A stretch of DNA of 64,000 bases, from assembly GCA_964019415.1 (NCBI GenBank), contig OZ025868.1, forward strand, positions 4,008,143 to 4,072,142. Reading direction: 5' to 3'. Within the stretch, counting starts at the first letter, position 1, and each line of letters begins with the position of its first letter. Of this stretch, positions 83-63,947 are shown one piece after another. A program made the translations under genes and the position numbers. This DNA comes from Ianthella basta. Its lineage: Eukaryota > Porifera > Demospongiae > Verongiida > Ianthellidae. Below the pieces are notes generated by a model. It ran no database searches and was not told where the DNA came from. It saw nothing but the letters and a program-made list of their open reading frames with translations.

Positions 83-975
83 TTTCACATTTTGTGGTGA
101 AGTTCCCCATGACCTTTGCCCTCTGTCCGTCTGCTCCCTCTCCCTTCCTCACAGCCTCCACCTCAATCCTGTAAGTGGTGCCAGGTTGGAGGGAGGTCAG
201 AGTGTGGGAGGCGTCACTGTCAGCAGGTTGAGTGACATTGATGGAGCCATCTTGGGTGGAGTGGGACACAGTGAAGGAGTAGCACTTGGGGTAGCCAGCT
301 GACCAGGTGACACTCAAAGTGGTGGCTGTTCTGTTTGCCAAGGTCAGGGAGGAGATGGTCACCTCCATAGCTAAAAGTGAAACAATTTACTATATTTTGG
401 TGATTGCGTCAATGTGTTAACTGGCAGAGGAGAAGCACTTACGCTCAATGACTGGCATAAACACATTGCTGGCATTAATGACATCAACATCAGTGCACTG
501 ATACCTCTCCCTCAAGTTGGTGTAGTTGTCCACCACTAGCTCCTGATAAGTGGTGGTGCGAGGAAGGGCAGTGTGTCCAGGGATGGCTGATGGGTCCACA
601 TTGAACATGTCACCAACACTCCAGGAGATACCTCCTGTTGTAGTACACCTGAGGGTGATGTTACCAGTTCTACACACATAAGGGGCAGCTGGGTGGGTCT
701 GAGTGAGGACCACTGAACCTATAATGAATAATTGTGTGTTGCAGGATTCACCCATAGGCTATCTCACTGCAAAATGACACACACAAGACAGAAGGCCAGT
801 TAACCGACTAGCTTGGCTAGCTGTACACACGTAGTCATAGACGCTAATCAATTATAGCCATAACCGTTATGAATGGTTATAAGTTCTGTTGGTGACATGA
901 CCTTGTCCATCACTTACCAGTTGAGACTGCAAACGCGCACAGAAGTACATGTACACACAGAGGTATGGCCTCCAT
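83..975 (-). CDS. R1: Ig-FnIII receptor, 5' part (3' end off window)
   Basis: Three exons are readable. The signal-peptide exon (975-918) begins [13 protein letters not shown] and ends in a phase-1 donor GTAAGT. The Ig exon (718-443) follows acceptor TTATAG; it has the LRC, SW and RYQC landmarks of an Ig fold plus an extra cysteine in YVCRT, and ends at donor GTAAGT. The FnIII exon (370-83) carries the TLSVTW core tryptophan and the [13 protein letters not shown] strand, then a slightly extended end (TTKCE) before donor GTGAGG. All introns are phase 1. The stalk, membrane and tail exons lie beyond position 1, so the tail class is unknown. The first exon matches that of R5, R6, R9, R10 and R12. 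The role as a cell-surface recognition receptor is inferred from domains; the ligand is unknown. Confidence 0.85.
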
Positions 976-1985
976 TTTCTCGCACTAGGTAATTTCCCCA
1001 TGGCTATAACCACCCATGAATGTAATTAACTTGTCCTCACACAGCTGCAGTGCAAGCATAGATATTCTAACTATGGTGCAAGTCAGGACTAGCAAAGACA
1101 AATGTCATGAAGAAGAGTTCCATAGTAATGTCCTGGGCAAGTATGTTGCATGAACTTATAACCAATGCAAAACAGCATTACGTTTATATAATCACTAGCA
1201 GTGTGTGACGGTTGAGAAAGCTAGTAGAAGTATATTTGAACAAGTAACTTGGCCGTTATGGATTGTGTCACTGGACAATTATGTTAGCTCATACATCAGA
1301 TTGCAAGGCACTAGCAGCAGAGATTGTATGATAGTTGGCTTCCATTCTCTCTATATAAAGCTCGACCACCCTGCACCTGCACAAACACTCATCAACTCAA
1401 CAATTCTACCATTATGTTGGTATCATACTGTAATTATGCATGCAAGGTTGGGCCGAGGTCTCCCCCCAAATGTCACTGGAAGCAAGACATGGTGGAGTAA
1501 ATGGCTTGATCATTTATACTGAAAATTGGAATTTACTTCAAGATACTGGGATAAAAGTACATCGACACCCAATTTGACCATCTGCAACAGTTCCAATATT
1601 TGCAGCCCATGGCCATGTGTGAAGTCAGAGTAGAGACCATTTCACATGTCCAGCCCTCTGCACAGCTTCTACTCAGTTTGTGAAATACCCTTTTCTCCAT
1701 GGAGTTATGCAATAGCGGATGCAGTGGATAGGGACTGGCCATGCAAGACAAAATAGGATATAGAGGTGAAAACATACAATTGCAGACATGTACAGTAATT
1801 GTGTAAACTGACACTGCCCATTGTCTACACACAAGCCATATTTTCAAACCATTCACTTGTAGTACAGCTATTAGCACTAATGCACAGCAAGACATTATGT
1901 TGAGTCAGCATGCAGGCGTGCTATGTATAAATTGGATAACAACTCTGAGCATAGTCAACATGCACTCTTCATTCCTGCCATCGCT
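976..1985. other. Intergenic spacer between R1 and R2
   Basis: No convincing exon is visible. Open frames here (for example 1205-1522 plus and 1533-1895 minus) lack domain, splice or paralogue support. A TATA-like stretch near 1352-1360 (minus strand reading TTTATATAG) could be part of the R1 promoter; this is a weak guess. No second signal-peptide exon is seen here, unlike the other units. Confidence 0.4.
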
Positions 1986-3652
1986 TCAACTTGACACATT
2001 GATGTACTTGCTCTCTTGTGACTTGGAGCTCATCTCAATGGGCAGGTAGGATGGGTTAGCCTGCAGCTTCTCTCCCTCCTCCTCCTCCCTTGTTGGTGGC
2101 TCCTCCCCTTCTGGACCTGCTTTGACACTGTCCCCTCCACCTGCATGGAGGGAGGCAGCAGCCCTGCTTCACAGGAGGGACTGGGACAGCTGAGGGGTGC
2201 TGCACAACTCACCACCTCTCAGCTCAGCTCTGCACCTCTGCAGTCTCTTGTACATCACTGCATGCACCACTGCACTGACTGTGCAGGTGGACAGTGACAG
2301 TGTCAACACAAGTGATAGGAGAACTGACAGCACTGTCACTGTGGTCTGACATGTATCTGTGTAGAGGAGTGAATGATGTCTACTCACACTGTTTGATTGA
2401 ATGTGGTTTCTTACTCTTATAATTATATATAAACTTACTTTGTGTGTGATCCTCAATATAATTATAGAGTAGCTAGTGCACAAATAATAATGAAGTGTGG
2501 TATATTAAAATTCAGATTGGAAGCAATTATTCATTCCCAAGACACACTAACTACTGTGTAGAATATCATGTGTATGTACTGTAGATGCATTAAATGAAGT
2601 TCACTCACCCAGTGTTACATCCCCTGAAGATGCACCAGGTGTTGGTGTAGGGGTGTCAGCAGTTGATGAGGTGTAAGTAACAGCTGAATCTGTCAGTATA
2701 GTAACATAATACAAATGAACGAAAATATGGTTTTTGATCCACTATGCATCTATCACTCTATGTGTGACATGAAATCCCAAGGCAAAATGCAATTAAACAA
2801 ATTAAATAATTATAGAGCTCAACTCACCTTCAGTAGTGAAGTTCCCCATGACCTTTGCCCTCTGTCCGTCTGCTTCCTCTCCCTTCCTCACAGCCTCCAC
2901 CTCAATCCTGTAAGTGGTGCCAGGTTGGAGGGAGGTCAGAGTGTGGGAGGTGTCACTGTCAGCAGGTTGGGGGACATTGATGGAGCCATCTTGGGTGGAG
3001 TGGGACACAGTGAAGGAGTAGCACTTGGGGTAGCCAGCTGACCAGGTGACACTTAAAGTGGTGGCTGTCCTGCTTGCCAAGGTCAAATTGGAGATGGTCA
3101 CATTGGGAGCTGTAGATAGGTATATGAGCGAGTGAACATTGCATAAGAGTGTTAAGAGCAAATGCACCTTACCTTCAAGTTGTGTAAGAAGTACGTCATT
3201 GGCAAAGACACCCATCACAACAACACTGCACTGATACCTCTCCCTCAAATTGGTGTAGCTGTCCACCACTAGCTCCTGATAGGTAGTGGTGCGAGGAAGG
3301 GCAGTGTGTCCAGGGATGGTTGATGGGTCCACATTGAACATGTCATCAATACTCCAGAATACACCATCTGCTGTGCCATACTGACACCTGAAGGTGATGT
3401 TACCAGTTCTACACACATAAGGGGCAGCTGGGTGGGTCTGAGTGAGGACCACTGAACCTGTACGACAGTGTCAAAACCAGTCATTTGGCTAGGTAAAGAA
3501 ACATTGTCAACACTATACTTCACTTCATGATATCACCCACAGTAATAGCTAAATGTGTAGCTACAGTAGCATATAGAGATGGGTGACTGATTACCTTTTG
3601 TTCCTGACAGTATCCAAGACAGTATCACAATCAAGAATTTGCAGGACTCCAT
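1986..3652 (-). CDS. R2: Ig-FnIII receptor with short NPxY/YxN tail, intact
   Basis: Complete six-exon model. Signal peptide 3652-3595 (MESCKFLIVILSW); Ig 3457-3173; FnIII 3109-2828; Ser/Thr/Pro stalk 2689-2609; membrane exon 2356-2213, about 25 hydrophobic residues then YKRLQR; tail 2140-1986 ending TGA. All five introns are phase 1 with GT-AG ends. The tail has an acidic run (REEEEGEK), then NPSYLPI, an NPxY-type motif (PTB binding or endocytosis in known families), then KYINV, a YxN-type motif (Grb2-like SH2 binding in known families). Type I membrane topology is expected. The Ig domain differs from its paralogues mostly around the FG loop (YQCSVVVMGVFAND). No lesions seen. Signalling partners are inferred, not shown. 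Confidence 0.88.
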
Positions 3653-5837: not shown

Positions 5838-7256
5838 TCAACTGGACATCACATTGATGTACTTGCTCTCTTGTGACTTGTAGCTCATCTCAATGGGCAG
5901 GTAGGATGGGTTAGCCTGCATCTTCTCTCCCCCCTCCTCCTCCCTTGTTGGTGGCTCCTCCCCTTCTGGACCTGTTTTGACACTGTACCCTCCCCCTGCA
6001 TGGAGGGAGGCAGCAGCCCTGCTTCACAGGAGGGACTGGGACAGCTGAGGGGTGCTGCACAACTCACCACCTCTCAGCTCAGCTCTGCACCTCTGCAGTC
6101 TCTTGTACATCACTGCATGCACCACTGCACTGACTGTGCAGGTGGACAGTGACAGTGTCAACACAAGTGACAGGAGAACTGACAGCACTGTCACCGTTAT
6201 TTGACTCCATCTGTGCGAAGGAGTGAAAATAGACGTCTACTTACACTTCTTGATTGAAAGTCATTTCTTACTCTTGTAAAAACTTACTTTGTATGTAGTT
6301 CTCAATAGAATAGTGCTCAAACAATAATGAAGTGTGGTATAGTAAAATTCAGATTAGAAGCAAATGCAGATTCATTCCCAAGACACACCAGCTACAGTGT
6401 GGAATATATACGTATGTACGTACTGTACATCCATTAGTAATGTACACTCACCCAGTGTTCCATCCCCTGAAGATGCATGAGGTGTCGGTGTTGGGGTGTT
6501 GGTGGCTGTTGATGTTGAAGTAACAGCTGTATCTGTTAGTATTGAAAATAACACAATCAAATGAAGATATGTCATTTTGAACCACTCTGCATCTGCGTAT
6601 CACTCTATATGTGACATGAAATCCTAAGCCAAAATACAAATAAAACAAATATAGAGCTCAATTCACCCAACTCACCCAACTCACGTATGTAGTCACTTTT
6701 ATACGAACATAGTAATGTCGTGATGATATTCTGTGATCACACCGTCCTCACCATCAGTAGTGAAGTTCCCCATGACATTTGCCCTCTGTCCGTCTGCTCC
6801 CTCTCCCTTCCTCACAGCCTCCACCTCAATTCTGTAAGTGGTGCCAGGTTGGAGGGAGGTCAGAGTGTGGGAGGTGTCACTGTCAGCAGGTTGGGGGACA
6901 TTGATGGAGCCATCTTGGGTGGAGTGGGACACAGTGAAAGAGTAGCACTTGGGGTAGCCAGCTGACCAGGTGACACTCAAAGTGGTGGCTGTCCTGCTTG
7001 CCAAGGTTAAGTTGGAGATGGTCACTTCAGAATCTGTACATAATAATATATGTATCATTAACATGTGCACAGACAAATGTAAGTGAGCACTGTAAGAGTG
7101 TTCACTTAAGAGCCGACTTCACCTTCAATCACTGGAATAAAATTGTTGCTGTTAAAAATGCTAGCCATCACAGCAGTGGTACACTGATACCTCTCCCTCA
7201 AGTTGGTGTAGCTGTCCATCACTACCTCCTGATAGGTGGTGGTGCGAGGGAGGGCA
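5838..7256 (-). pseudogene. R3: 5'-truncated short-tail Ig-FnIII receptor
   Basis: Paralogue of R2. Readable exons are Ig 3' fragment 7256-7123, FnIII 7033-6752, stalk 6532-6452, membrane exon about 6209-6063 and tail 5995-5838. The tail keeps NPSYLPI, MSYKSQ and KYINV. The Ig exon is cut at about 7256, where unrelated repeat sequence begins, so its first half and the signal peptide are missing. At the usual membrane-exon acceptor, a 1-nt deletion relative to R2 brings an immediate stop; an acceptor AG about 20 nt further in (GTGACAG) would restore the frame and keep most of the membrane segment. Probably a dead gene unless it receives upstream exons. Confidence 0.8.
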
Positions 7257-7741
7257 ATATACAATATACACCACTAATCTAAAGTAAATAATATAATATA
7301 ATATAATATAATATAATATAATTCCCGGGGGGTTAGGCACCCCTCACGAACATGTGATAGGTGTGCCTTTGAAGTATGGGAGATTTTAAGACTTTTAAAT
7401 GAGGCAGAATTTTTAATTAGGCCTTCGTTCTTCTACAAGCAGCCCGCAAAATTCTAATATAAATGTTCATAGCATAACACTTAATGTATGGTGCATTTAT
7501 ATTGATGCATAGTGGTATCTTGTATATGAATGCAACTGGGCTCGTTGAGACGTGAAACTTGGTGGACACATCCAAGTGGTCCACCTTCCTATGTTATTAG
7601 CGGGATTTCTTAATTAGTCTCAAAATGGCTGACATATGTGAGGTGTATGTTGTATTCAACCAGCCCGGCCCGCTCAGTCATGACACTTGGTGGACCTAGC
7701 CAGATTAGCCAACTGTTCATGTCATTAGCAGGATTTCTTAA

Positions 7742-12186: not shown

Positions 12187-12238
12187 AAAAATACTCATCG
12201 CAATTAAATATATCACAGTAGTGCAGCATAGTGCCTAC

Positions 12239-13962
12239 CTTGCAATGGGTGTCGTTGATGCTTCAGTTTTGGTGGCTGCACAACAATTAGAGTTTGGGTA
12301 CACATGACTATCAACTTCAACATTTACTGCACAAACAAACATACACCTACCAGGCATAGCTGTTCGTCTGCACACAAAGTGCATCACAAGGACGATTACT
12401 ATAATTGGAACAACAATGAGCACAAGAGCTACCAGACCTCCAACAACACCTCCAACAATGGCATATACACCTGCATTGTGTGGCACGGCATAGGTGACAA
12501 ACAACAGAAGAGTGCTGAGCCAAACAATGACATAAAAGTACAAAACTGTACTCTGTGCAATTACATGTATGGCAATTGTGAGGAAATGTTGCAATTGAGA
12601 AGTTACCTCATGACAGTTACGAATGATTAAATGCATGGCAAGCAAGTACAACACATGCAATCAATGCACAAATAAATATCAGCACACTTTACTACTTTAC
12701 AGCAAGGTCTCTGACAGGCCCAATCAATATGCGTAGCTGACTAATCAATGCAATATCATAAGAATCACCAATACAGATACACCAATGCCACGAAGCAGAG
12801 GTACAGAATGGCAATATGGCACTTGAACTTATGGTACCAAGAATGTGTACATCTCACCAGTTGAAGCTACAGTAGGCGTTGAAGGAGGAGACGAACTCAT
12901 CGCTGTTGGCAAGGTGGTTCCAGAAGTTGTAGTAGTAATGTCTGTCAGCATACGTCATGTACAAGCAAGCAATGAAAGTACGTACAATCTTCCCTCACTG
13001 CTACCTTGCACTCATGCAGCAGTGCAGACAGTAAATTAAACACAACCTGAACTACTAAACCCACAGAATTGTAAGTCACACTTTGCTCACTATCAGTAGT
13101 GAAGTTCCCCATGACCACTGCCCTCTGTCCGTCTGCTCCCTCTCCTTTCCTCACAGCCTCCACCTCAATGATGTAAGTGGTGCCAGGTTGGGGGGAGGTC
13201 AGAGTGTGAGAGGTGTCACTGTCAGCAGGTTGGGTGACATTGATGGAGCCATCTTGGGTGGAGTGGGACACAGTGAAGGAGTAGCACTTGGGGTAGCCAG
13301 ATGACCAGGTGACACTCAAAGTGGTGGCTGTCTTGCTTGCCAATGCAAGGTCAGGGAGGAGACATTCACCTCCATAGCTAAAGGTGAAATGAATTACTAT
13401 ATTTGGTGATTGCGTCAATGTGTTAACTGGCAGAGGAGAAGCACTTATGCTCAACAACTGGCATAAACGCATTGCTGGTAGTAATGACATCAACATCAGT
13501 GCACTGATACCTCTCCCTTAAGTTGGTGTAGCTGTCCACCACTACCTCCTGATAGGTGGTGGTATGAGGGAGGGCAGTGTGTCCAGGGATGGTGGATGGG
13601 TTCACATTGAACATGTCACCAATACTCCAGGAGATACTTCCTGTTGTAGTACACCTGAGGGTGATGTTATCAGCTGTTCTACACACATAAGGGGCAGCTG
13701 GGTGGGTCTGAGTGAGCACCACTGAACCCAATCGAAATAAGAATTGTATTACTATTATAATGTTATGCATACATTGTTAGAGATCCTATCTACAAATCTA
13801 CACACGTTGTACAGTGTGACTTGCTACTCACTTAGCCCATACATAATAACTGTTCATTGACTGATTGATTGATATTATACAACATTAATCACCTGCTCCC
13901 CCTGACAGTGTACAGCAGAGAAGTACATGTATAGCAACCAACATTCCAAAGTGGCACTCCAT
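12239..13962 (-). pseudogene. R4: ITIM-class receptor pseudogene lacking its ITIM tail
   Basis: Exons: signal peptide 13962-13893 (MECHFGMLVAIHVLLCC), Ig 13721-13449, FnIII 13377-13091, stalk 12941-12858, membrane exon 12470-12351, first cytoplasmic exon 12326-12239 (contains HVYPN). Lesions: the usual Ig acceptor is lost, leaving a TTCAG acceptor 6 nt inside; the Ig donor GT is changed to AT; the FnIII exon carries a 5-bp insertion that shifts the frame near its start; and the small exon plus ITIM exon present in R5 and R12 are absent, replaced by the 7.3-12.2 kb repeats. The membrane exon matches R5 apart from substitutions. Almost certainly non-functional. Confidence 0.85.
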
Positions 13963-15832: not shown

Positions 15833-15895
15833 AGGTATAACTTATACCCATGCCCACAAACATACTGACAACGACATTGCATCAGCATGAATGCA

Positions 15896-18757: not shown

Positions 18758-18868
18758 TTACTTAGTGCCACTAAACTTCACTTCAGAATACTGAACAGTA
18801 AACCACTCATTGTCAGGAGCTTTAATAGGGCGCTGCTCTGGGTTTTGCCAGTCAAGCTGGGCATAAGT
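18758..18868 (-). CDS. ITIM tail exon of R5
   Basis: A 111-nt terminal exon after acceptor TTTTATAG, phase 0, 36 codons plus TAA. It holds two tyrosines 25 residues apart: TYAQL (preceded by Gln from the previous exon) and VQYSEV. The spacing is close to ITIM-ITSM pairs bound by tandem SH2 domains. Near-identical exons occur at 29991-30101 (last residue Lys to Asn) and 58264-58374. Confidence 0.85.
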   Translation of the reverse strand, partial: TYAQLDWQNPEQRPIKAPDNEWFTVQYSEVKFSGTK

Positions 18869-21800
18869 CTATAAAAGAGAAACAAAGATTCTGTCACATC
18901 TCTCGCAATGTACACACACACAGGCATCTTCATACTACAGTGCCAGCAGAACATGTATGACAGAATTGTAGCTTAATGATGACTTCTTACCAGGGCATAA
19001 ACCAATGTGGAATTTCAACATTCAAGCATTCGTTAGTAAGAACAAACGAATGTTTTAATAATTTGGTGATATTTCATAGACATGATTGCGTCATTGCGCT
19101 AAAAAGATTTAGACATCAAAGCAAACTAACAAGTTGATGCAATAACTAAATATGGAGCTCGGCCACAGAGAAATCAGTCTGGTGGGCCAGCACCTCCACC
19201 TTGTGGAAGGAGGGTCTGGCTTCACTCATATACCATTTTTGTGCAGGATCTGACTTTCGCGATCCACTGGTTGGACCAATCGAATTGCAGAATGCGCGTG
19301 AACTGTAAACTTAACGTATACGCATAAACGTATTCGCTGTGACTATTCTTGATGCTTCTGTACTGAACAGCCTTCTCTTCTTCGAAGCAACCAATTTTAT
19401 GAAATGCTGAAGTCTTCACAATCCCTCTGTCGTAGCCATCAGTTGTACTCCTCGTCAGACTTGTATAATTTGAATGCAGAGTCATGGTGTAATGCATATG
19501 CATTACGTTTACAGTTTACGCACGTGCAGATTCTGCACAAAAACATTATACAAGTGAAGCCAGACCCTCCTTCTGCGGCCTGGCCAGCCAGACTACAGAG
19601 AGAAATGGCAACAGAAAGTCACAAGAAGACCAATATACGGGCACCCTTGATGCCATCCAAAAATCCTGGGTGTTAGCAAGCATTTTGTTCTGCACTTTAG
19701 AAGTAACAAACTGTACTTAATGTACACTATTGCTGGTTGTGGTGTATTTATATAGAATGCTCAAAAGTGCTGGAAATGCTCATCTTCAAACTTTCGAACG
19801 AATGTTTGAATGTTTCCACATTCTTTTACGCCCTACTTCTTACAGACTCATACTCTACCACGACAGTATTTCTACTGTCTAGTTTTAAGTTTATGCAAGG
19901 CACTTTGCTAAGCTTTACCTGTTTTGTGTCTTCACTGGCATTAGTGGTAGCTCCCTGACTACTGTATGAACAGCAGTACATAAAAAATACTCATCGTAAC
20001 TAAATATATCACAGTAGTGCAGCATAGTGCCTACCTTGCAATGGGTGTCGTTGATGCTTCAGTTTTGGCGGCTGCACAACAATTAGAGTTTGGGTACACA
20101 TGACTATCAACTTCAACATTTACTGCACAAACAAACATACACCTACCAGGCACAGCCTTTCGTCTGCACACAAAGTGCAACACAAGGACAATTGCTACAA
20201 TCAGAACAACAACGAGTACAAGAGCTACCAGACCTCCAAAAACACCTCCAACAAAGGCATTTACACCTGCATTGTGTGACACGGCATAGGTGACAAACAA
20301 CAGAAGAGTGCTGAGCCTATGCCAAGAAATGCAGTGTGAGTTTGGTGCTGTTTGATGACATAAAAGTACAAAACCGTACAATAACATGTATGGCAATTGA
20401 GGAAATGTTGCAATTGAGAAGTTACCTCATGACAGTTATGAATGATTAAATGCATGGCAAGCAAGTACAACACATGCAATCACCGCACAAATAATAATCA
20501 ACACACTTTACTACTGTACAGCAAGGTCTCTGATAGGCCCAATCAATATGCATAGCTGACTAATCAATGCAATGCCATAAATATCACTAACAGAGATACA
20601 CCAACGCCTTGAAGTAGAGGTACAGAATGGCAATATGGCAACTGCACTTACGGCACCATGAATGTGTACATCTCACCAGTTGAAGCTACAGTAGGTGTTG
20701 AAGGAGGAGACGAACTCATCGCTGTTGGCAAGGTGGTTCCAGAAGTTGTAGTAGTAATGTCTGTCAGCATATGTCATGTACAAGCAAGCAATACGCACAA
20801 TTACGTACAATCTTCCCTCACTGCTACCTTGCACTCATGCAGCAGTGCAGTCAGTAAATTAAACACAACCTGAACTACTAAACCCACAGAATTGTAAGTC
20901 ACACTTCGCTCACCGTCAGTAGTGAAATTCCCCATGACCTTTGCCCTCTGTCCGTCTGCTCCCTCTCCTTTCCTCACAGCCTCCACCTCAATCCTGTAAG
21001 TGGTGCCAGGTTGGAGGGAGGTCAGAGTGTGGGAGGTGTCACTGTCAGCTGGTTGGGTGACAGTGATGGAGCCATCTTGGATGGAGTGGGACACAGTGAA
21101 GGAGTAGCACTTGGGGTAGCCAGATGACCAGGTGATAGTCAAAGTGGTGGCTGTCTTGCTTGTCAAGGTTAGGGAGGAGACATTCACCTCCATAGCTAGG
21201 GGTGAAATGAATTACTATATTTGGTGATTGTGTCAATGTGTTAACTGGCAGAGGAGAAGCACTTACATTCATTAACTGGCATAAACACATTGCTGGTCAA
21301 TATAGCATCAACATCAGTACACTGATACCTCTCCCTCAAGTTGGTGTAGCTGTCCACCACTACCTCCTGATAGGTGGTGGTACGAGGGAGGGCAGTGTGT
21401 CCAGGGATGGTTAATGGGTCCACATTGAAAATGTCACCAATCCTCCAGGTGATACTTCCTGTTGTGGTACATCTGAGGGTGATGTTACCAGTTCTACACA
21501 CATAAGGGGCAGCTGGGTGGATCTGAGTGAGGACCACTGAACCTGTAATAAACATTAAGTACCATAGCTACATACTATTGTGTAGTGTATCGCACGTATA
21601 TCTCATTACAAACAATTACACAGCTAGACACACACAAGACAGAACTCAAGGGCTGGCTGGCTGTCTATAGCTAGCTGTTCACTTAGTTAGCTTGCTTATT
21701 AGCCACACAAGACAGAGACACTAATTACTAGAAATAATGAAAATTTTCTAGACAAATTGTAAGAATGTAGGGATGGCACAAAAAGTACAGAAACAAGTAA

Positions 21801-22856
21801 AGGCTGTTACACAGTGGAGCATTAATCATGGTCCCTACATGCAAGAATGTCACACCTTATAGTCCTACACCCTTGAATGTTGGTTAATGCTCCACTGTGT
21901 AACAGCCTTTACTTGTTTCTGTACTTTTTGTGCCATCCCTACATCCTTACAATTTTTCTAGAAAATTTTTATTATTTCTAGTTTCTATACTTTTATGGTG
22001 TGCAAGCTGCACATGCTAAGTGCCACTAGAGGACATCCATGCAGGTTACAGTATAGGACCTTATTTCTGTAATCCTGGAGCGAGGTGTCAGCTATCTCCT
22101 AGCTTCCGCGCCAGCCCACCTAAGAGCTTAGAAACGGTGACCGGAAGTTAGCCGAGTACTAATTAAAAATGGCGGGTCCACGGATGACCTTTAGAAACGA
22201 CGCGCAAGCTAACTTTGGCCAAAGCCCTTGTCTCGTATACACCTGAAACGGCCTCCTGACGATGTTTGCTAGCTTTTGGACAGAAACTGAAGGAACAGTA
22301 GGCGGAAAACTGCCGTTCTGAACGTCATCATAAAATGGCGTCTTGCGCGTAGCAACGTCTCCCGAAAGACTCGGTAACCCCAAAGTGTGAACAATACGCT
22401 TTCGGAGCCTATACTTCGAAAGAATACAGCTCGGTTAATTTTCAGTAGTTTCGTGTTCGAATTAGTTCGATAGCTAATTCTGTTCGTCAGTTACAGCTGG
22501 CAAAGAAGAATATGAAGACGAAAATGGATGTTTTCGAGTGTCATTTTCTCGCCGACAGACCACGTTCGCTTGCCTTCCAGGTCAGTTTAGTGTATGAATA
22601 TTTCGTATTTAGCCCTACGAAGCCTCGTTTTGGCAGTTTTCGACGCTTTTCGCGATTTCGTCCCTATACCAATGTATTGTGAATCGAAACACCCTGTACC
22701 ATCCCTACATAGAGAGTACTATCGTACTCTCTGATAAGCCATACTTATTATCAATGGCAGTAGGTACTGTTGGTGCAATGACCTTGTCCATCACTCACCA
22801 GTTGAGACTGCAAAAACGCACAGAAGTACATGTACACACAGAGATATGGTCTCCAT
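18758..22856 (-). CDS. R5: ITIM-class Ig-FnIII receptor, apparently intact
   Basis: Eight exons: signal peptide 22856-22799 ([15 protein letters not shown]), Ig 21542-21267, FnIII 21195-20914, mucin-like stalk 20760-20677 (TTTTSGTTLPT), membrane exon 20266-20147 (Gly/Val/Leu-rich span then FVCRRK), cytoplasmic exons 20122-20035 (HVYPN), 19961-19919 (SSQGATTNASEDTKQ) and 18868-18758. Intron phases are 1,1,1,1,1,2,0 and every junction fits. The last exon encodes TYAQLDW, then NEWFTVQYSEVKF and stop. QxYxxL plus VxYxxV is the ITIM/ITSM layout that recruits SHP-type tandem-SH2 phosphatases in vertebrate families, so an inhibitory role is inferred. Two transposon insertions sit in its introns without touching exons. 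It is the only ITIM-class unit here with a fully open frame. Confidence 0.88.
19175..19595. mobile_element. MITE with long terminal inverted repeats, copy 1
   Basis: The left end reads CAGTCTGGTGGGCCAGCACC and continues to GGAAGGAGGGTCTGGCTTCACT; the right end mirrors it (AGTGAAGCCAGACCCTCC to GGCCAGCCAGACTA). It sits in the intron before the ITIM exon of R5. Other copies are at 30406-30835 and 58681-59094, at the same relative place, so it predates duplication of the ITIM-class genes. A minus-strand open frame inside is probably incidental. Confidence 0.7.
21728..22734. mobile_element. Composite insertion with captured promoter and first exon
   Basis: The paralogues R6, R9 and R10 read ctaattataagccat at this intron position. 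Here about 1 kb is inserted between ctaatta and taagccat. The left 254 bp (21728-21981) is a foldback starting CTAGAAATAATG and ending CATTATTTCTAG-like. The right end is a hairpin (AGAGAGTAC TATC GTACTCTCT) ending CTGA. The middle has CCGGAAGT (22141), AAAATGGCGG (22166) and AAAATGGCGTC words and a plus-strand ATG exon. It could be a TA-targeted TIR composite or a Helitron-like element (AT target, CTRR-like end, 3' hairpin). The copy in R12 is at 61232-62312. Confidence 0.65.
22512..22580 (+). pseudogene. Captured first exon (23 codons) inside insertion
   Basis: ATG frame MKTKMDVFECHFLADRP ends at a phase-0 donor CAG then GTCAGT. It is the same length in the R12 copy (62090-62158). It lies downstream of ETS-like and YY1-like words, as a gene start would. 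A divergent minus-strand frame starts about 100 bp away in the R12 copy (61994-61737, MYRLRKRIVHTLG), but its ATG is AAG here. Parent genes not recognised. Confidence 0.4.
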
Positions 22857-25009: not shown

Positions 25010-27272
<2,263 letters not shown>

Positions 27273-28678: not shown

Positions 28679-28748
28679 CTAATCATTATGTAGAAAGGAA
28701 GTGTGTGAATGTGTGTGAATGTGTGTGTGTGTGCGTGTATGTGCGCAC

Positions 28749-32620: not shown

Positions 32621-32634
32621 TGTGTACGTCTCAC

Positions 32635-35354: not shown

Positions 35355-35400
<46 letters not shown>

Positions 35401-35451
35401 ATGCGTGTGTGTGCGTGTACGTGTGTGCATGCATGTGTGTGCGCCTGCGTG

Positions 35452-35485
<34 letters not shown>

Positions 35486-35860
35486 TGTGTGCTTGTGTAT
35501 GTGCTGGTGTGTGCTCGTGTGTGTATGTGTGTGCGTGTGTGTGTGCGTGTGTGTGTGTGTGTGTGCGCACACGCGCGATATGGGAGCATGCTACGTAGCT
35601 AATCATACACGGTTGGGTCCAAGTTGCTAGCTACAGTATGTACAAGGAAATTAGGAATGCAGAGAGAAAATACAGTACATGGGATGGTGGTGGGAAGAGA
35701 TAGTAAATTTGACACCTTTCATGTTGATAAATCTGCAAATTGATAAATAAACAATCATTTGACATCTTACAGGGTGTACTAGCTATATTGCTTCTGTGCA
35801 CTGATGCCTCTGGAAATTCCTGAAGCAAGTAAACTCGTAGAACGCACAAAAAACTTCCGA

Positions 35861-35909
<49 letters not shown>

Positions 35910-37102
35910 ACACCATGAATGTGTACATCTCACCAGTTGAAGCTACAGTAGGCATTGAAGGAGGAGACGAACTCATCGCTGTTGGCAAGGTGGTTCCAGA
36001 AGGTGCAGCAGTAATGTCTGTCAGCATATGTCATGTACAAGCAAGCAATGAAAGTACGTACAATCTTCCCTCACTGCTACCTTGCACTCATGCAGCAGTG
36101 CAGTCAGTAAATTAAACACAACCTGAACTACTAAACCCACAGAATTGTAAGTCACACTTCGCTCACCATCAGTAGTGAAGTTCCCCATGACCTTTGCCCT
36201 CTGTCCGTCTACTCCCTCTCCTTTCCTCACAGCCTCCACCTCAATCCTGTAAGTGGTGCCAGGTTGGAGGGAGGTCAGAGTGTGGGAGGTGTCACTGTCA
36301 GCAGGTTGGGTGACACTGATGGAGCCATCTTGGGTAGAGTGGAACACAGTGAAGGAGTAGCACTTGGGGTAGCCAGATGACCAGGTGACACTCAAAGTGG
36401 TGGCTGTCTTGCTTGTCAAGGTTAGGGAGGAGACATTCACCTCCATGGCTAAAGGTGAAATGAATTACTATATTTGGTGATTGCATCAATGTGTTAACTG
36501 GCAGAGGAGAAGCACTTACGTTCAATGACTGGCATAAACGCATTGCTGGTCAATATAGCATAAACATCAGTACACTGATACCTCTCCCTCAAGTTGGGGT
36601 AGCTGTCCACCACTACCTCCTGATAGGTGGTGGTGCGAGGGAGGGCAGTGTGTCCAGGGATGGTTAATGGGTCCACATTGAAAATGTCACCAATCCTCCA
36701 GGTGATACTTCCTGTTGTGGTACATCTGAGGGTGATGTTACCAGTTCTACACACATAAGGGGCAGCTGGGTGGGTCTGAGTGAGGACCACTGAACCTGTA
36801 ATAAACATTAAGTACCATAGCTACATACTATTGTGTAGTGTATCGTACGTATATCTCATTAAAAACGATTACACAGCTAGACACACACAAGACAGAGCTC
36901 AAGGGCTGGCTGGCTGTCTATAGCTAGCTGTTCACTTAGTTAGCTTGCTTATTAGACACACAAGACAGAGACACTAATTATAAGCCATACTCATTATCAA
37001 TGGCAGTAGGTACTGTTGGTGCAATGACCTTGTCCATCACTCACCAGTTGAGACTGCAAAAACGCACAGAAGTACATGTACACACAGAGATATGGTCTCC
37101 AT
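34831..37102 (-). CDS. R10: Ig-FnIII receptor with long NPxY/YxN tail, intact
   Basis: Exons: signal peptide 37102-37045, Ig 36795-36520, FnIII 36448-36167, stalk 36017-35934 ([13 protein letters not shown]), membrane plus tail 35324-34831. All junctions are phase 1 and open. The tail has [28 protein letters not shown] and terminal KYINTPT: two NPxY-type and two YxN-type sites, six tyrosines in about 65 residues. It is the only long-tail unit in the window with the terminal tyrosine intact. The stalk-membrane intron has degenerate (TG)n (35346-35575) and (CA)n (35867-35908). In known families NPxY binds PTB domains or clathrin adaptors and YxN binds Grb2-like SH2 domains; adaptors here are inferred. 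Confidence 0.9.
35346..35575. repeat. Degenerate (TG)n tract in R10 intron
   Basis: About 230 bp of TG with many GC/AC interruptions, the longest such tract here, upstream of the R10 membrane-exon acceptor. Cys/Val- and His/Thr-rich open frames over it are artefacts. Confidence 0.95.
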
Positions 37103-37670: not shown

Positions 37671-38134
37671 TTTGTTTTGTGGTTTCAGTAGGTGTTCCCC
37701 TAGTGCTTAGCTTATTGTTATAATGGCCACACTGAATGTACACACCTTGTAGCATTTGTACATGTACACATGGCATGAAGATTTGTACTTAGGTACATGC
37801 AACATTACACGTATATACTAGTACATAGCAGGGTTTGGTATATACCTGTGTATATAGCACATCCTGCGTGACATGGAAGTATGAGATATAGTCATTCACA
37901 TTAAGTATGAGAGCAAAGAATGAATACGAAGAGCACAGAACAATATAGTAGCTGGATGTCATCACAGGTTTAGCACATGATACAAATCCAATCCAGAGCC
38001 AAGAATGTTACACATCTAAAACAGAAACTCTATTAAAAGTATATCTTAGCTGCAGTGAACCATCTGACTATTTGCATTCGAAATTTTCTTGCTTTAACAC
38101 AGTACCTCGCAACTCTTCTACTGTGTATATCATG

Positions 38135-39017
38135 TTATGTTGGTGTGTTGATGCACTTGCTCTCTTGTGATGTGTAGCTCATCTCAATGGGCACATAGGA
38201 TGGGTTGACCTGCAACTTTGCATGCTCTTCAACATCAGCCACATCCTGTGGAGCCATCTTGACATTCATGTATTGATGCTCTTGTGACTTGTAGCTCGTC
38301 TCAATGGGCAGGTAGGATGGGTTAGCCTGCATCTTCTCTCCCTCTTCCTCCTCCTCCCTTGTTCGTGGCTCCTCCCCTTCTGGAGCTGATTTGAAGTGAG
38401 CCTTAATCACTGCAGCAACATTGAATTCCAGTTCACTATGAAGGATGTACATTCCAGTTGGTACACACATGTACATCTGCACATGTGGTCTGTGTCTACA
38501 GATCTTACTTGCTACAGGCTTTAAATTTCTTCTGCGTGCAATGACAAATATCAGTCCTGCAACAGTGGCACTAATGCATATAGCCACAAGGGTCAGTACT
38601 CCTCCAGCAAGACCTCCAAATAATGTTCCTAATCATTATGTAGAAAGGAAGTGTGTGAATGTGTGTGAATGTGTGTGTGTGTGCGTGTATGTGCGCACGC
38701 GTGTGTGTGTGCGTGTGTGTGCATGTGTGTGTGTGTGTGCGCGATATGGGAGTATGCTAGCTAATTATACACAGTTGGGTCCAAGTTGCTAGCTACAGTA
38801 TGTACAAGGAAATTAGGAATGCAGAGAGAAAATACAGTACATGGGATGGTGGTGGGAAGAGATAGTAAATTTGACACCTTTAATTTTCATGTTGATAAAT
38901 CCTACACAATCATTTGACATCTTACAGGGTGTACTAGCTATATTGCTTCTGTGCACTGATGCCTCTGGAATTTCCTGAAGCAAGTAAACTCGTAGAACGC
39001 ACAAAAAACTTTCGAAA

Positions 39018-39060
<43 letters not shown>

Positions 39061-40183
39061 ACACCATGAATGTGTACATCTCACCAGTTGAAGCTACAGT
39101 AGGCGTTGAAGGAGGAGACGAACTCATCGCTGTTGGCAAGGTGGTTCCAGAAGTTGTAGTAGTAATGTCTGTCAGCATATGTCATGTACAAGCAAGCAAT
39201 ACGTACAATCTTCCCTCACTGCTACCTTGCACTCATGCAGCAGTGCAGTCAGTAAATTAAACACAACCTGAACTACTAAACCCACAGAATTGTAAGTCAC
39301 ACTTCGCTCACCGTCAGTAGAGAAGTTCCCCATGACCTTTGCCCTCTGTCCGTCTGCTCCCTCTTCCTTCCTCACGTACAGCCTCCACCTCAATCCTGTA
39401 AGTGGTGCCAGGTTGGAGGGAGGTCAGAGTGTGGTAGGTGTCACTGTCAGCAGGTTGGGTGACATTGATGGAGCCATCTTGTGTGGAGTGGGACACAGTG
39501 AAGGAGTAGCACTTGGGGTAGCCAGATGACCAGGTGACACTCAAAGTGGTGGCTGCCTTGCTTGTCAAGGTTAGGGAGGAGACGTTCACCTCCATAGCTA
39601 AAAGTTAAAATGAATTACTATATTTGGTGATTGCGTCAATGTGTTAACTGGCAGAGGAGAAACACTTACATTCAACGACTGGCATAAACACATTGCTGGT
39701 CAATATAGCATCAACATCAGTGCACTGATACCTCTCCCTTAAGTTGGTGTAGCTGTCCACCACTACCTCCTGATAGGTGGTGGTGGGGAGTAGGGCAGTG
39801 TGTCCAGGGATGGTGGATGGGTTCACATTGAACATGTCACCAATACTCCAGGTGATACTTCCTGTTGTAGTATACCTGAGGGTGATGTTACCAGCTGTTC
39901 TACACACATAAGGGGCAGCTGGGTGGGTCTGAGTGAGGACCACTGAACCCAATCGAAATAAGAATTGTATTACTATTATAATGTTATGCATACATTGTTA
40001 GAGATCCTATCTGCAAATCTACACACGTTGTACAGTGTGACTTGCTACTCACTTAGCCCATACATAATAACTGTTCATTGACTGATTGATTGATATTATA
40101 CAACATTAATCACCTGCTCCCCCTGACAGTGTACAGCAGAGAAGTACATGTATAGCAACCAACGTTCCAAAGTGGCACTCTAT
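38135..40183 (-). pseudogene. R11: long-tail receptor with lost start and frameshift
   Basis: Signal exon 40183-40114 is homologous to that of R4, but its ATG is ATA and the next in-frame ATG is ACG. Ig 39942-39670 uses the displaced TTCAG acceptor, as in R4. FnIII 39597-39312 has a 4-bp GTAC insertion that shifts the frame. Stalk 39168-39085 and membrane-tail exon 38628-38135 are open; the tail has [16 protein letters not shown] and NPSYVPIEMSY, with a terminal CIN in place of YIN. The 5' half derives from the R4-type duplication while the tail is long class, so R11 is a natural tail-swap chimera, now inactive. Confidence 0.85.
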
Positions 40184-55616: not shown

Positions 55617-55619
55617 AAT

Positions 55620-58263: not shown

Positions 58264-58374
58264 TTACTTAGTGCCACTAAACTTCACTTCAGAATACTGA
58301 ACAGTAAACCACTCATTGTCAGGAGCTTTAATAGGGCGCTGCTCTGGGTTTTGCCAGTCAAGCTGGGCATAAGT
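58264..58374 (-). CDS. ITIM tail exon of R12
   Basis: Intact 111-nt exon identical in protein to that of R5 (TYAQLDW ... VQYSEVKF). Out of frame with the present R12 reading because of the upstream insertion. Confidence 0.75.
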   Translation of the reverse strand, partial: TYAQLDWQNPEQRPIKAPDNEWFTVQYSEVKFSGTK

Positions 58375-61300
58375 CTATAAAAGAGAAACAAAGATTCTGT
58401 CACATCTCTCGCAATGTACACACACACAGGTATCTTCATACTACAGTGCCAGCAGAACATGTATGACAGAATTGTAGCTTAATGATGACTTCTTACCAGG
58501 GCATAAACCAATGTGGAATTTCAACATTCAAGCATTCGTTAGTAAGAACAAACGTATGTTTTAATGATTTGGTGATATTTCATAGACATGATTGCGTCAT
58601 TGCGCTAAAAAGGTTTAGACATCAAAGCAAACTAACAAGTTGATGCAATAACTAAATATGGAGCTCGGCCACAGAGAAATCAGTCTGGTGGGCCAGCACC
58701 TCCACCTTGTGGAAGGAGGGTCTGGCTTCACTCATATACCATATTTGTGCAGGATCTGACTTTCGCGATCCACTGGTTGGACCAATCGGATTGCAGAATG
58801 CGCGTGAACTGTAAACATAACGTATACGCATAAACGTATTTGCTGTGACTATTCTTGATGCTTCTGTACTGAACAGCCTTCTCTTCTTCGAAGCAACCAA
58901 TTTTATGAAATGCTGAAGTCTTCACAATCCCTCTGTCGTAGCCATCAGTTGTACTCCTTGTCAGACTTGTATAATTTGAATGCAGAGTCATGGCATAATG
59001 CATATGCATTACGTTTACGCACGTGCAGATTCCGCACAAAACTGTTATACAAGTGAAGCCAGACCCTCCTTCTGCGGCCTGGCTAGCCAGACTACAGAGA
59101 GAAATGGCAACAGAAAGTCACAAGAAGACCAATACACGGGCACCCTTGATGCCATCCAAAAATCCTGGATGTTAGCAGGCATTTTGTTCTGCACTTTAGA
59201 AGTAACAAACTGTACTTAATGTACACTATTGCTGGTTGTGGTGTATTTATATAGAATGCTCAAAAGTGCTGGAAATGCTCATCTTCAAACTTTCGAACGA
59301 ATGTTCAAATGTTTCCACATTCATTTATTCCCTACTTCTTACAGACTCATACTCTACCACGACAGTATTTCTACTGTCTAGTTTTAAGTTTATGCAAGGC
59401 ACTTTACTAAGCTTTACCTGTTTTGTGTCTTCACTGGCATTAGTGGTAGCTCCCTGACTACTGTATGAACAGCAGTACATAAAAAAATACTCATCGTAAC
59501 TAAATATATCACAATAGTGCAGCATAGTGCCTACCTTGCAATGGGGGTTGTTGATGCTTCAGTTTTGGCGGCTGCACAACAATTAGAGTTTGGGTACACA
59601 TGACAACTCAACTTCAACATTTACTGCACAAACAAACATACACCTACCAGGCATAGCTGTTCGTCTGCACACAAAGTGCAACACAAGGACAATTGCTACA
59701 ATCAGAACAACAACGAGCACAAGAGCTACCAGACCTCCAACAACACCTCCAACAATGGCATTTACACCTGCATTGTGTGACACGGCATAGGTGACAAACA
59801 ACAGAAGAGTGCTGAGCCTATGCCAAGAAATGCAGTGTGAGTTTGGTGCTGTTTGATGACATAAAAGTACAAAACCGTACAATAACATGTATGGCAATTG
59901 AGGAAATGTTGCAATTGAGAAGTTACCTCATGACAGTTATGAATGATTAAATGCATGGCAAGCAAGTACAACACATGCAATCAACGCACAAATAATAATC
60001 AGCACACTTTACTACTGTACAGCAAGGTCTCTGATAGGCCCAATCAATATGCATAGCTGACTAATCAATGCAATGCCATAAGGATCACTAATATAGATAC
60101 ACCAACGCCTTGAAGTAGAGGTACAGAATGGCAATATGGCAACTGCACTTACGGCACCATGAATGTGTACATCTCACCAGTTGAAGCTACAGTAGGCGTT
60201 GAAGGAGGAGACGAACTCATCGCTGTTGGCAAGGTGGTTCCAGAAGTTGTAGTGGTAATGTCTGTCAGCATATGTCATGTACAAGCAAGCAATACGCACA
60301 AGTACGTACAATCTTCCCTCACTGCTACCTTGTACTCATGCAGCAGTGCAGTCAGTAAATTAAACACAACCTGAACTACTAAACCCACAGAATTGTAAGT
60401 CACACTTCGCTCACCGTCAGTAGTGAAATTCCCCATGACCTTTGCCCTCTGTCCGTCTGCTCCCTCTCCTTTCCTCACAGCCTCCACCTCAATCCTGTAA
60501 GTGGTGCCAGGTTGGAGGGAGGTCAGAGTGTGGGAGGTGTCACTGTCAGCAGGTTGGGTGACAGTGATGGAGCCATCTTGGGTGGAGTGGGACACAGTGA
60601 AGGAGTAGCACTTGGGGTAGCCAGATGACCAGGTGATAGTCAAAGTGGTGGCTGTCTTGCTTGTCAAGGTTAGGGAGGAGACATTCACCTCCATAGCTAG
60701 GGGTGAAATGAATTACAATATTTGGTGATTGTGTCAATGTGTTAACTGGCAGAGGAGAAGCACTTACATTCATTAACTGGCATAAACACATTGCTGGTCA
60801 ATATAGCATCAACATCAGTACACTGATACCTCTCCCTCAAGTTGGTGTAGCTGTCCACCACTACCCCCTGATAGGTGGTGGTACGAGGGAGGGCAGTGTG
60901 TCCAGGGATGGTAGATGGGTCCACATTGAACATGTCACCAATCCTCCAGGTGATACTTCCTGTTGTGGTACACCTGAGGGTGATGTTATCAGCTGTTCTA
61001 CACACATAAGGGGCAGCTGGGTGGATCTGAGTGAGGACCACTGAACCTGTAATAAACATTAAGTACCATAGCTACATACTATTGTGTAGTGTATCGCACG
61101 TATATCTCATTACAAACAATTACACAGCTAGACACACACAAGACAGAACTCAAGGGCTGGCTGGCTGTCTATAGCTAGCTGTTCACTTAGTTAGCTTGCT
61201 TATTAGCCACACAAGACAGAGACACTAATTACTAGAAATAATGAAAATTTTCTAGACAAATTGTAAGAATGTAGGGATGGCACAAAAAGTACAGAAACAA

Positions 61301-62434
61301 GTAAAGGCTGTTACACAGTGGAGCATTAATCATGGTCCCTACATGCAAGAATGTCACACCTTATAGTCCTACACCCTTGAATGTAGGGACGATGGTTAAT
61401 GCTCCACTGTGTAACAGACTTTACTTGTTTCTGTACTTTTTGTGCCATCCCTACATCCTTACAATTTTTCTAGAAAATTTTTATTATTTCTAGTTTCTAT
61501 ACTTTTATGGTGTGCACATGCACATGCTAAGTGCCACTAGAGGACATCCATGCAGGTTACAGTATAGGACCTTATTTGGTGTGCACCTGCACATGCTAAG
61601 TGCCACTAGAGGACATCCATGCAGGTTACAGTATAGGACCTTATTTCTGTAATCCTGGAGCGAGGTGTCAGCTATCTCCTAGCTTCCGCGCCAGCCCACC
61701 TAAGAGCTTAGAAACAGTGACCGGAAGTTAGCCGAGCTAATTAAAAATGGCGGGTCCACGGATGACCTTTAGAAACGACGCGCAAGCTAACTTTGGCCTA
61801 AGCCCTTGTCTTGTATACACCTCAAGCGGTCTCCTGACGATGTTGGCTAGCTTTTGGACAGAAACTGAAGGAACAGTAGGCGGAAAACTGCCGTTCTCAA
61901 CGTCATCATAAAATGGCGTCTTGCGCGTAGCAACGTCTCCCGAAAGACTCGGTAACCCCAAAGTGTGAACAATACGCTTTCGGAGCCTATACATCGAAAG
62001 AATACAGCTCGGTTAATTTTCAGTAGTTTCGTGTCCGAATTAGTTCGATAGCTAATTCTGTTCGTCAGTTACAGCTGGCAAAGAAGAATATGAAGACGAA
62101 AATGGATGTTTTCGAGTGTCATTTTCTCGCCGACAGACCACGTTCGCTTGCCTTCCAGGTCAGTTTAGTGTATGAATGTTTCGTATTTAGCCCTACGAAG
62201 CCTCGTTTTGGCAGTTTTCGACGCTTTTCGCGATTTCGTCCTTATACCAATGTATTGTGAATCGAAACACCCTGTACCATCCCTACATAGAGAGTACTAT
62301 CGTACTCTCTGATAAGCCATACTTATTATCAATGGCAGTAGGTACTGTTGGTGCAATGACCTTGCTCATCACTCACCAGTTGAGACTGCAAAAACGCACA
62401 GAAGTACATGTACACACAGAGATATGGTCTCCAT
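58264..62434 (-). CDS. R12: ITIM-class receptor, ITIM tail cut off by frameshift
   Basis: Close paralogue of R5. Signal peptide 62434-62377, Ig 61046-60768, FnIII 60696-60415, stalk 60261-60178, membrane exon 59767-59648, cytoplasmic exons 59623-59535, 59460-59418 and 58374-58264. Every splice site is intact. The first cytoplasmic exon is 89 nt rather than 88: an extra base after VNVEVE shifts the frame and gives LSCVPKL then stop. As read, the product is a membrane receptor with a tail of about 20 residues and no tyrosine motif; the intact ITIM exon downstream is not reached. It could be a signalling-dead decoy, a dying gene, or an assembly indel. Intron insertions match those of R5. Confidence 0.82.
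58681..59094. mobile_element. MITE with long terminal inverted repeats, copy 3
   Basis: Same family and same intron position as 19175-19595. A small deletion near the right end removes part of the GTTTACAGTTTACGC stretch. Confidence 0.7.
61232..62312. mobile_element. Composite insertion in R12 intron (partner 21728-22734)
   Basis: Same boundaries and contents as in R5: foldback 61232-61493, captured promoter-like GC-rich part, plus-strand 23-codon exon 62090-62158 and 3' hairpin. Here the divergent minus-strand frame keeps its ATG (61994-61737, 85 codons). The insertion predates the R5/R12 duplication. Confidence 0.65.
61509..61646. repeat. 69-bp tandem duplication
   Basis: GGTGTGCAC...GGACCTTATT occurs twice in a row (61509-61577, 61578-61646), single in the R5 copy (about 21998-22066). 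A recent local duplication. Confidence 0.85.
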
Positions 62435-62933: not shown

Positions 62934-62994
62934 CTGCTCTTCCTGACAGTAGACAACATAGACATATAGCCAATGTTTTGAAGTAGATCTCCAT
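62934..62994 (-). CDS. Alternative (distal) signal-peptide exon of R12
   Basis: Intact 61-nt ATG exon with GTAGCAG donor, 500 bp upstream of the proximal signal exon. Confidence 0.6.
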
Positions 62995-63453
62995 TTTGTT
63001 TTGTGGTCTCAGTAGGTGTTCCCCTAGTGCTTAGCTTATTGTTATAATGGCCACACTGAATGTACACACCTTGTAGCATTTGTACATGTACCCATGGCAT
63101 GAAGATTTGTACTTAGGTAGATGCAACATTACACGTATATACTAGCACATAGCAAGGTTTGGTAATATACCTGTGTATATAGCACATCCTGCGTGACATG
63201 GAAGTATGAGATATAGTCATTCACATTAAGTATGAGAGCAAAGAATGAATATGAAGAGCACAGAACAATATAGTAGCTGGATGTCATCACAGGTTTAGCA
63301 CATGATACAAATCCAATCCAGAGCCAAGAATGTTACACATTTAAAACAGGAACTCTAGTAAAAGTATATCTTAGCTGCAGTGAACCATCTGACTATTTGC
63401 ATTCGAAATTTTCTTGCTTTAACACAGTATTAACGCAACTCTTCTATATCATG

Positions 63454-63947
63454 TTATGTTCGCGTGTTGATGCACTTGCTGTCTTGTGATGCGTAGCTCA
63501 TCTCAATGGGCACATAGGATGGGTTGACCTGCAACTTTGCATGCTCTTCAACATCAGCCACATCCTGTGGAGCCATCTTGACATTCATGTATTGATGCTC
63601 TTGTGACTTGTAGCTTGTCTCAATGGGCAGGTAGGATGGGTTAGCCTGCATCTTCTCTCCCTCCTCCTCTTCCTCTCTTCTTCGTGGCTCCTTCCCTTCT
63701 GGAGCTAATTTGAAGTGAGCTTTAATCACTGCAGCAACATTGAATTCCAGTTCACTATGAAGGATGTACATTCCAGTTGATACACACATGTACATCTGCA
63801 CATGTGGTCTGTGTCTACAGATCTTACTTGCTACAGGCTTTAAATTTCTTCTGCATGCAATGACCAATATCAGTCCTGCAACAGTGGCACTAATGCATAA
63901 AGCCACAAGGGTCAGTACTCCTCCAACAAGACCTCCAACTAATGTTC
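63454..63947 (-). CDS. R13: long NPxY tail exon (5' exons off window)
   Basis: Membrane-tail exon after acceptor [37 protein letters not shown], the acidic run [37 protein letters not shown], and terminal DSKCINTRT with Cys in place of the last Tyr. Open throughout. The upstream intron begins a (TG)n tract at the window edge. The ectodomain must lie beyond 64000. Confidence 0.85.

Follow-up and report, generated by a model that had tools for sequence, protein, structure and literature searches.

Complexes of immunoglobulin superfamily (IgSF) genes whose products carry immunoreceptor tyrosine-based inhibitory motifs (ITIMs) or hemITAM motifs are already known from Hydractinia and Botryllus (PMC12065747, PMC11067881). 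In Hydractinia, the Alr genes are variable IgSF transmembrane genes that lie linked in a pseudogene-rich cluster, with low overall identity between Alr proteins (PMC11067881), and the candidates bear ITIM and hemITAM motifs (PMC12065747). In Botryllus, the fester co-receptors (FcoR) of the fuhc locus are type I proteins with Ig domains and tyrosine-motif tails; they combine a V-type Ig, a sushi and two C2-type Ig domains, and their long tails contain ITIM, hemITAM or YxxI/L/V core motifs (PMC12065747). Here, we describe a locus of the sponge Ianthella basta, analyzed through a window (the whole stretch of 64,000 nucleotides; contig C1, 4,008,143–4,072,142, of an assembly of 209 Mb in 96 contigs) that resembles these systems in its linked, variable, putative IgSF transmembrane genes, its pseudogenes, and its predicted type I proteins with tyrosine-motif tails. 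In contrast to the Alr proteins, the fibronectin type III (FN3) domain and the start of the Ig domain are almost uniform here. Relative to Hydractinia and Botryllus as described, each gene has one Ig and one FN3 domain, and relative to Hydractinia there are three standard tails and 145 Ig places among the matches scored.

The KIR, LILR and PIR receptors offer a further comparison. Like the sponge genes, they place near-identical ectodomains on inhibitory and non-inhibitory tails within a tandem cluster that includes pseudogenes and recombinant genes, and the YAQL spelling found here resembles that of KIR ITIMs. KIR and LILR proteins have at least two Ig domains and no FN3, and their activating forms pair through a charged transmembrane (TM) residue; the complete models here instead have one Ig and one FN3 exon each, and no charged residue lies in the most hydrophobic stretch of the three TM exons. 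Within sponges, an Ig-type ectodomain is shared with an Ig-bearing receptor tyrosine kinase and adhesion molecules of Geodia (PMC12018476, PMC11999971), whereas the present genes form a large cluster and no kinase domain was detected in the two full-length models scanned. Sponge SRCR proteins with Ig/FN3 domains and TIR proteins with Ig domains have been described, with no such cluster in the accessible portions of the reports (PMC4772301, PMC12909245). We found no published report of a sponge Ig-FN3/ITIM receptor cluster in a search that covered mostly open-access papers. What is distinctive here is the single Ig-FN3 plan, a standard set of three tails, the cluster's size, and a homogenization limited to exons.

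We regard the window as one section of a very extensive cluster of genes for single-pass surface receptors that would form a paired-receptor-like recognition complex, and assign this reading a probability of about 0.6. Self-comparison of the window and tblastn with exon peptides revealed an array of related units across it. Eleven Ig-FN3 units (U1 to U11) lie on the minus strand, with Ig 5' ends at 719, 3458, 7261, 13728, 21543, 26966, 32317, 33500, 36796, 39949, and 61047, and two additional TM/tail sets without an ectodomain of their own inside the window lie at 28679 and, at the window edge, at 63948. A preliminary description had counted 13 minus-strand units; the 13 exon sets and their coordinates agree, but only 11 of them have Ig-FN3 and two are tail-only. 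The exon order of a complete unit is signal, Ig, FN3, Thr/Ser/Pro stalk, TM, and tail. Of the 11 units, five are complete (U6 and U9 of class A, U5 and U11 of class B, U2 of class C), each with GT-AG introns and an uninterrupted frame between its ATG and its stop codon, five are broken, and U1 runs off the window edge. The three membrane/tail classes noted earlier were thus all recovered, each with a complete open model. The proposal that all exons are common to every unit did not hold, given that the METIS-type signal exon was found at six of the 11 units (U2 has a different signal exon), that five units are broken and that two sets are tail-only. Phase-1 introns, judged from exon lengths, extend up to the TM exon in all five complete models, but the last two introns of the class B tail are not phase 1. 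Likewise, the near-identity of the ectodomains applies within the window, where Ig exons are 84–87% identical to the first alignment row and other copy pairs reach 96%, but not to the wider cluster, where identity across 64 Ig exons descends to 49%. Taken as a whole, the earlier observation was partly confirmed.

The FN3 exon matched PF00041 at 4e-11 (43.4 bits against a cut-off of 25), and its relatives in the PDB include tenascin-R, tenascin, fibronectin, receptor protein tyrosine phosphatases (RPTPs), and Dscam; the FN3 identity is secure. In the 64 aligned Ig exons Trp34, Tyr74, and Cys76 are invariant and Cys26 almost so, in keeping with the residue pattern of the immunoglobulin superfamily (B-strand Cys, C-strand Trp, and F-strand YxC spacing). 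Pfam matches at E<=1 were obtained for Ig_2 with 33/64 of these exons (best 7.3e-6) and for Ig_3 with 28/64 (best 5.2e-6). Elsewhere in the genome, a dense array of FN3 matches at C12:1688478-1713223 gave the top PF00041 scores of the search, and probably encodes a single giant FN3 protein or a small number of them.

Two different Ig exons were searched against the whole assembly and the places merged. The best 150 of 165 and the best 150 of 204 candidates were scored, so divergent Ig copies may be missing from the counts. These matches define 145 distinct Ig places on C1, partial ones included, between 3.723 and 5.550 Mb (1.83 Mb), with 117 on the minus and 28 on the plus strand and a median spacing of 4.6 kb; the first search alone gave 143. 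Among the matches scored, four Ig places lie off C1 (two on C2, two on C35). The array therefore runs on beyond the window, which is a small part of one cluster. All three remote Ig pairs tested (C1:4400397/5379990, 4436210/5413681, and 4292480/5075442) are 100% identical over ~300 bases although hundreds of kb apart, and represent either very recent segmental duplication or haplotype copies kept in the assembly, so the count of places may be too high. Database relatives comprise 51 proteins among the best 8,000 candidates scored, all ENA-derived, an origin that would fit host DNA in holobiont samples and proves nothing. One of them, P0005, is 98.9% identical to one Ig of this genome over 95 residues, with one mismatch; all others were less alike, and no clean allele pair emerged between the 51 relatives and the sequences compared. 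A second small group, diverged from the main cluster, lies at C2:14388480-14701527, with six class-B-type tails and two Ig relatives in ~310 kb.

The three tail classes differ in their tyrosine motifs. Class A has TM_A and a tail with NPSYLPIE and YMNV motifs followed by a second tyrosine block, class C has TM_C and a short tail, and in class B TM_B is followed by a pair of small exons and a terminal exon, TYAQLDWQNPEQRPIKAPDNEWFTVQYSEVKFSGTK, with an ITIM-type pair, YAQL and VQYSEV, at its end. At >=60% identity, 36 TM_C, 10 TM_A, and 7 TM_B places were counted at sampled loci, which are not a random set. The ITIM exon gave 38 genome matches at E<=10, with 21 in the cluster, six on C2 (14.39-14.69 Mb), and 11 weaker; a PDB search with it gave no match. 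Alignment of 17 of these 38 places with the window sequence showed that in 17 of the 18 class B tails the second tyrosine fits [SIVL]xYxx[IVL] (VQYSEV/VKYSEV/VQYTEI-type), and that 17 of the 18 keep a spacing of 25 residues between the tyrosines. In the first motif (YAxL), position –2 is not occupied by the usual residue. The ITIM-type tail of class B is conserved in divergent paralogues. Among 55 stretches of A/C tail, 51 contain NPSY, 52 contain Y[IVML]N[VIL], and six contain a stop codon. Their YLPI and Y[IM]NV motifs stand at the spacing of an immunoreceptor tyrosine-based activation motif (ITAM), and an ITAM-like pair, Yxx[IL]-x6-12-Yxx[ILV], with V allowed last, fits 50/55, a pattern picked after viewing the tails. 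The hydrophobic stretch of TM_C is directly followed by His. A distant two-tyrosine tail (QQYAELEF...NFDVQYTEI) gave 11 matches with E<=1e-11, located on C1 (0.3-0.7 and 2.37-2.45 Mb), C7, and C9, including C7:485850 and C9:2665896; the two-tyrosine tail module may be used beyond this receptor family.

Paired receptors place near-identical ectodomains on different tails in one cluster, and this arrangement was found here: A-tailed C1:4005472 and C-tailed C1:4008586 are ~1 nucleotide apart over the Ig exon (99.6%), and class A and class B units reach 97.5% nucleotide identity in the Ig exon. The ITIM consensus of an inhibitory tail is likewise present, as noted, in 17 of the 18 class B tails. 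For 29 of the 64 Ig exons a tail class could be set from the nearest downstream TM exon among the sampled sequences, and 28 of these were placed on an Ig tree, one being left out with its TM exon 8 kb off. Tail A required five changes for five rows (shuffled mean 4.8, 500/500 shuffles as low) and tail B four changes for six rows (23/500), compared to three changes for the 17 rows of tail C (0/500). From these counts, tails A and B are mixed over the tree and tail C mostly forms a separate group. The unit C1:4005472 is 95.0% identical to a C unit from its 5' side to the end of FN3, and then continues with an A/B-type stalk, TM_A, and tail A. At the sequence level this unit is a chimera, with a C-type ectodomain joined to an A-type TM/tail at the FN3 end. 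The resemblance to paired receptors proposed in the preliminary description is therefore supported by near-identical Ig exons on different tails, a conserved ITIM-type tail, and one C-to-A chimera.

We further compared divergence along the exons in 64 chosen Ig copies (18 divergent copies, the others being best hits). Synonymous divergence (dS), taken over 1,557 distant Ig pairs, was 0.09 for codons 1-25, ~1.1 for 26-51, 0.58 for 52-80, and 2.4 for 81-100, and in 47 FN3 copies it was 0.55 for codons 1-15 and 0.06-0.16 thereafter. In 33 whole units, mean nucleotide divergence was mostly 0.02-0.09 in the FN3 core and ~0.08 in the Ig start and one middle stretch, whereas it rose to 0.23-0.37 where the Ig exon is variable and to 0.37-0.55 in introns, in which different subfamilies may be force-aligned. 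Thus, the FN3 core and Ig start are homogenized across the sampled copies, and three Ig segments are highly diverged; from homology to other Ig domains we take these to be BC/C, C' to D, and FG/G. Since low dS in FN3 lies a few dozen codons from high dS in Ig, the mosaic is hard to attribute to amino-acid selection alone. Exchange between copies through the homogenized exons would be its simplest cause, and constraint at the RNA or DNA level is an alternative cause of the low exon dS.

Several results weigh against the paired-receptor-like reading. The Pfam Ig models did not match the three window copies scanned (U2, U6, and U11), so that the Ig assignment draws mainly on relatives, and a PDB profile search with the Ig domain was weak (best E 0.23, an antibody light chain; T-cell receptor alpha, 1.4). 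Five of the 11 window units (U3, U4, U7, U8, and U10) are broken. The grouping of tail C on the Ig tree indicates that tail exchange is not free everywhere, and the chimera, which may not be an intact gene, has NPSN where the others have NPSY. Of the features of activating paired receptors, a strict ITAM, Yxx[IL]-x6-12-Yxx[IL], was found in only 3/55 A/C tails, and the most hydrophobic run of 19 TM residues is free of charge in U6, U5, and U2 alike. The activating side is for this reason weaker than in KIR and LILR; the earlier interpretation is partly supported, in its paired-receptor likeness and in separating the units from a scattered dead repeat, but the KIR-type activating partner with a charged TM residue was not seen. 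In addition, short tyrosine motifs arise by chance too. Finally, pairwise dN/dS (the ratio of nonsynonymous to synonymous divergence) by segment reached a maximum of 1.01 and was nowhere clearly above 1, so that we claim neither positive nor diversifying selection.

ITIM, ITAM and NPxY-like motifs are docking sites for SH2 phosphatases, kinases, PTB proteins, or Grb2. In the mechanism we propose, the Ig domain would bind a ligand that varies, be it a microbe, an allelic marker of self, or a fellow receptor from the set, and would do so chiefly with its CC'FG side, where variation is concentrated. Class B tails would recruit SH2 phosphatases and dampen signaling, while class A and C tails, with NPSY, YLPI, and YxNV at ITAM-like spacing, would recruit PTB/SH2 adaptors or kinases for signaling or uptake. 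With near-identical ectodomains on opposite tails, the cell could measure a single recognition event against a threshold, in the manner of paired receptors. Exchange through the near-identical FN3 exon, by recombination or gene conversion, would join Ig variants to differing tails and keep the common exons uniform. A bolder version, which we offer only tentatively, is an as yet undescribed histocompatibility-type supergene of an early-branching animal, with well over 100 receptors, in which uniform FN3 exons would serve as recombination joints and variable Ig cassettes would be shuffled at the level of germ-line DNA onto ITIM or ITAM-like tails.

What the receptors would recognize can be argued in more than one direction. 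That the locus decides fusion or rejection as a histocompatibility locus, by analogy with the Hydractinia allorecognition complex or Botryllus fuhc, is plausible without being probable: one linked complex of variable IgSF receptors with inhibitory-type tails and interspersed pseudogenes fits the accounts of Hydractinia (PMC11067881) and Botryllus (PMC12065747), but a cluster of such size also fits microbe recognition. Innate receptors for microbes or symbionts are a possible alternative, in which copy number and Ig variation would answer to the microbiome and the inhibitory and uptake tails would correspond to tolerance and phagocytosis. NPxY and YxxI motifs suit uptake, many variable Ig types occur within one genome, and the database relatives are ENA-derived throughout; all of these count in its favor. 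It is unlikely that the genes have no part in immunity and encode ordinary molecules of adhesion or cell identity, with homophilic Ig adhesion and tails that do no more than link to adaptors. Ig-FN3 ectodomains are typical of adhesion molecules, and the PDB relatives of the FN3 domain include tenascin, fibronectin, RPTPs, and Dscam, but the conserved ITIM-type pair of class B, the mixing of tails, and the focusing of variation in a few Ig segments argue otherwise.

The remaining explanations concern the reality of the array. The size of the cluster could be partly an assembly artefact, produced by haplotype copies within one scaffold, as the identity of the three remote pairs would suggest; we consider this somewhat unlikely. 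Those pairs lie at 4.29-5.41 Mb, outside the window, and copies in the window differ from one another, introns included, on self-comparison. A dying repeat family without function is highly improbable. Broken window units (5/11) and stops in 7 of the 71 Ig exons collected and in 6/55 A/C tails point in that direction, but five complete GT-AG models, conserved FN3 and tail sequences, and the presence of copies in one region only point away from it. Its scattered form is contradicted by the placement of 145 of the 149 Ig places found within 1.83 Mb of C1, and a dead repeat was rejected on the grounds of this confinement of the copies to a single region and of the five complete models.

The units of the window, all on the minus strand, are as follows. 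U1 (94..975) has its signal exon at 975-918, Ig at 718-443, and FN3 from 371, open as far as seen; its TM/tail lies beyond the window, and genome context below the window, with TM_C at C1:4007411, assigns it to class C. U2 (1986..3652) is a complete class C model of 334 aa with an open frame, all introns GT-AG and an FN3 match of 4.2e-11, composed of exons 3652-3595, 3457-3173 (Ig), 3109-2828 (FN3), 2689-2609 (stalk), 2356-2213 (TM_C), and 2140-1986 (tail). U3 (5838..7261), a broken class C unit, has lost the 5' part of Ig and retains FN3 (7028-6753), stalk, TM_C (6203-6069), and tail (5993-5844). U4 (12237..13728) is a broken class B unit without the expected Ig acceptor AG and with an FN3 frame break; neither a METIS-type signal exon nor an ITIM exon was found adjoining it. 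U5 (18758..22856) is a complete class B model of 336 aa, open and with all introns GT-AG, with exons 22856-22799, 21542-21267 (Ig), 21195-20914 (FN3), 20760-20677 (stalk), 20266-20147 (TM_B), 20071-20035, 19961-19919, and 18868-18758 (ITIM exon). The peptide of this terminal ITIM-type exon (18758..18868), TYAQLDWQNPEQRPIKAPDNEWFTVQYSEVKFSGTK, recurs at 58374-58264 and, over 35 residues, at 30101-29991. U6 (25010..27272), a complete class A model of 369 aa with an open frame, all introns GT-AG and an FN3 match of 4.6e-10, has exons 27272-27215, 26965-26687 (Ig), 26615-26334 (FN3), 26182-26099 (stalk), 25515-25396 (TM_A), and 25296-25010 (repeated-tyrosine tail).

At 28292..28680, TM_A and a shortened tail A stand without their own ectodomain. 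In the broken class B unit U7 (29991..32317) a dinucleotide repeat takes the place of the 5' part of Ig, and FN3 (31984-31712), stalk, TM_B (31064-30951), and the ITIM exon (30101-29991) remain. U8 (32632..33806) is broken by stops in Ig and FN3, with no TM exon ahead of the next unit. U9 (34831..37102) is a complete class A model, open and with all introns GT-AG (exons 37102-37045, 36795-36520, 36448-36167, 36017-35934, 35324-35205, and 35105-34831), and U10 (38126..39949) is a broken class A unit without the expected Ig acceptor AG and with an FN3 frame break. U11 (58264..62434) is a complete class B model with an open frame and all introns GT-AG (exons 62434-62377, 61046-60768, 60696-60415, 60261-60178, 59767-59648, 59571-59535, 59460-59418, and 58374-58264). 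At the window edge, a TM_A and tail A set (63444..63949) has no adjoining ectodomain in the window.

Other elements are interspersed with these units. On the plus strand, two retroelement frames at 45218-47856 match a reverse transcriptase (RVT_1, 7.2e-20) and, weakly and under its cut-off, a tyrosine recombinase, an element we take to be DIRS/Ngaro-type, and retroelement frames at 53208-57792, presumably Ty3/gypsy-type, match a SCAN domain (5e-13), aspartic protease, integrase, reverse transcriptase, and RNase H. Large direct and inverted repeats occupy 7307-12107 (inverted pair 97.4% at 9759-10450), adjoining the truncated U3. A repeated segment of ~1 kb, outside the placed receptor exons, is common to 15097-18322, 41314-42369, and 49962-51144, and minisatellites at 43474-43981, 23672-23939, and 24443-24703 comprise a 33-base unit repeated 15 times and GAACTTCG-rich 22/33-base units.

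According to a 2025 review, the proteins put forward as allorecognition candidates in sponges, cnidarians, and ascidians show no conservation, and the underlying mechanisms are still a mystery (PMC12065747). A graft study in Amphimedon reported aggregation-factor adhesion genes without significant enrichment (PMC5450542). The genes for self/non-self recognition in sponges are thus still unsettled, and the cluster in I. basta is a concrete candidate locus for linkage with graft outcome. It also illustrates with unusual clarity how exons can stay uniform although the putative binding segments that lie between them have diverged. If the paired-receptor-like reading is true, it would place ITIM-type paired signaling in another early animal lineage.

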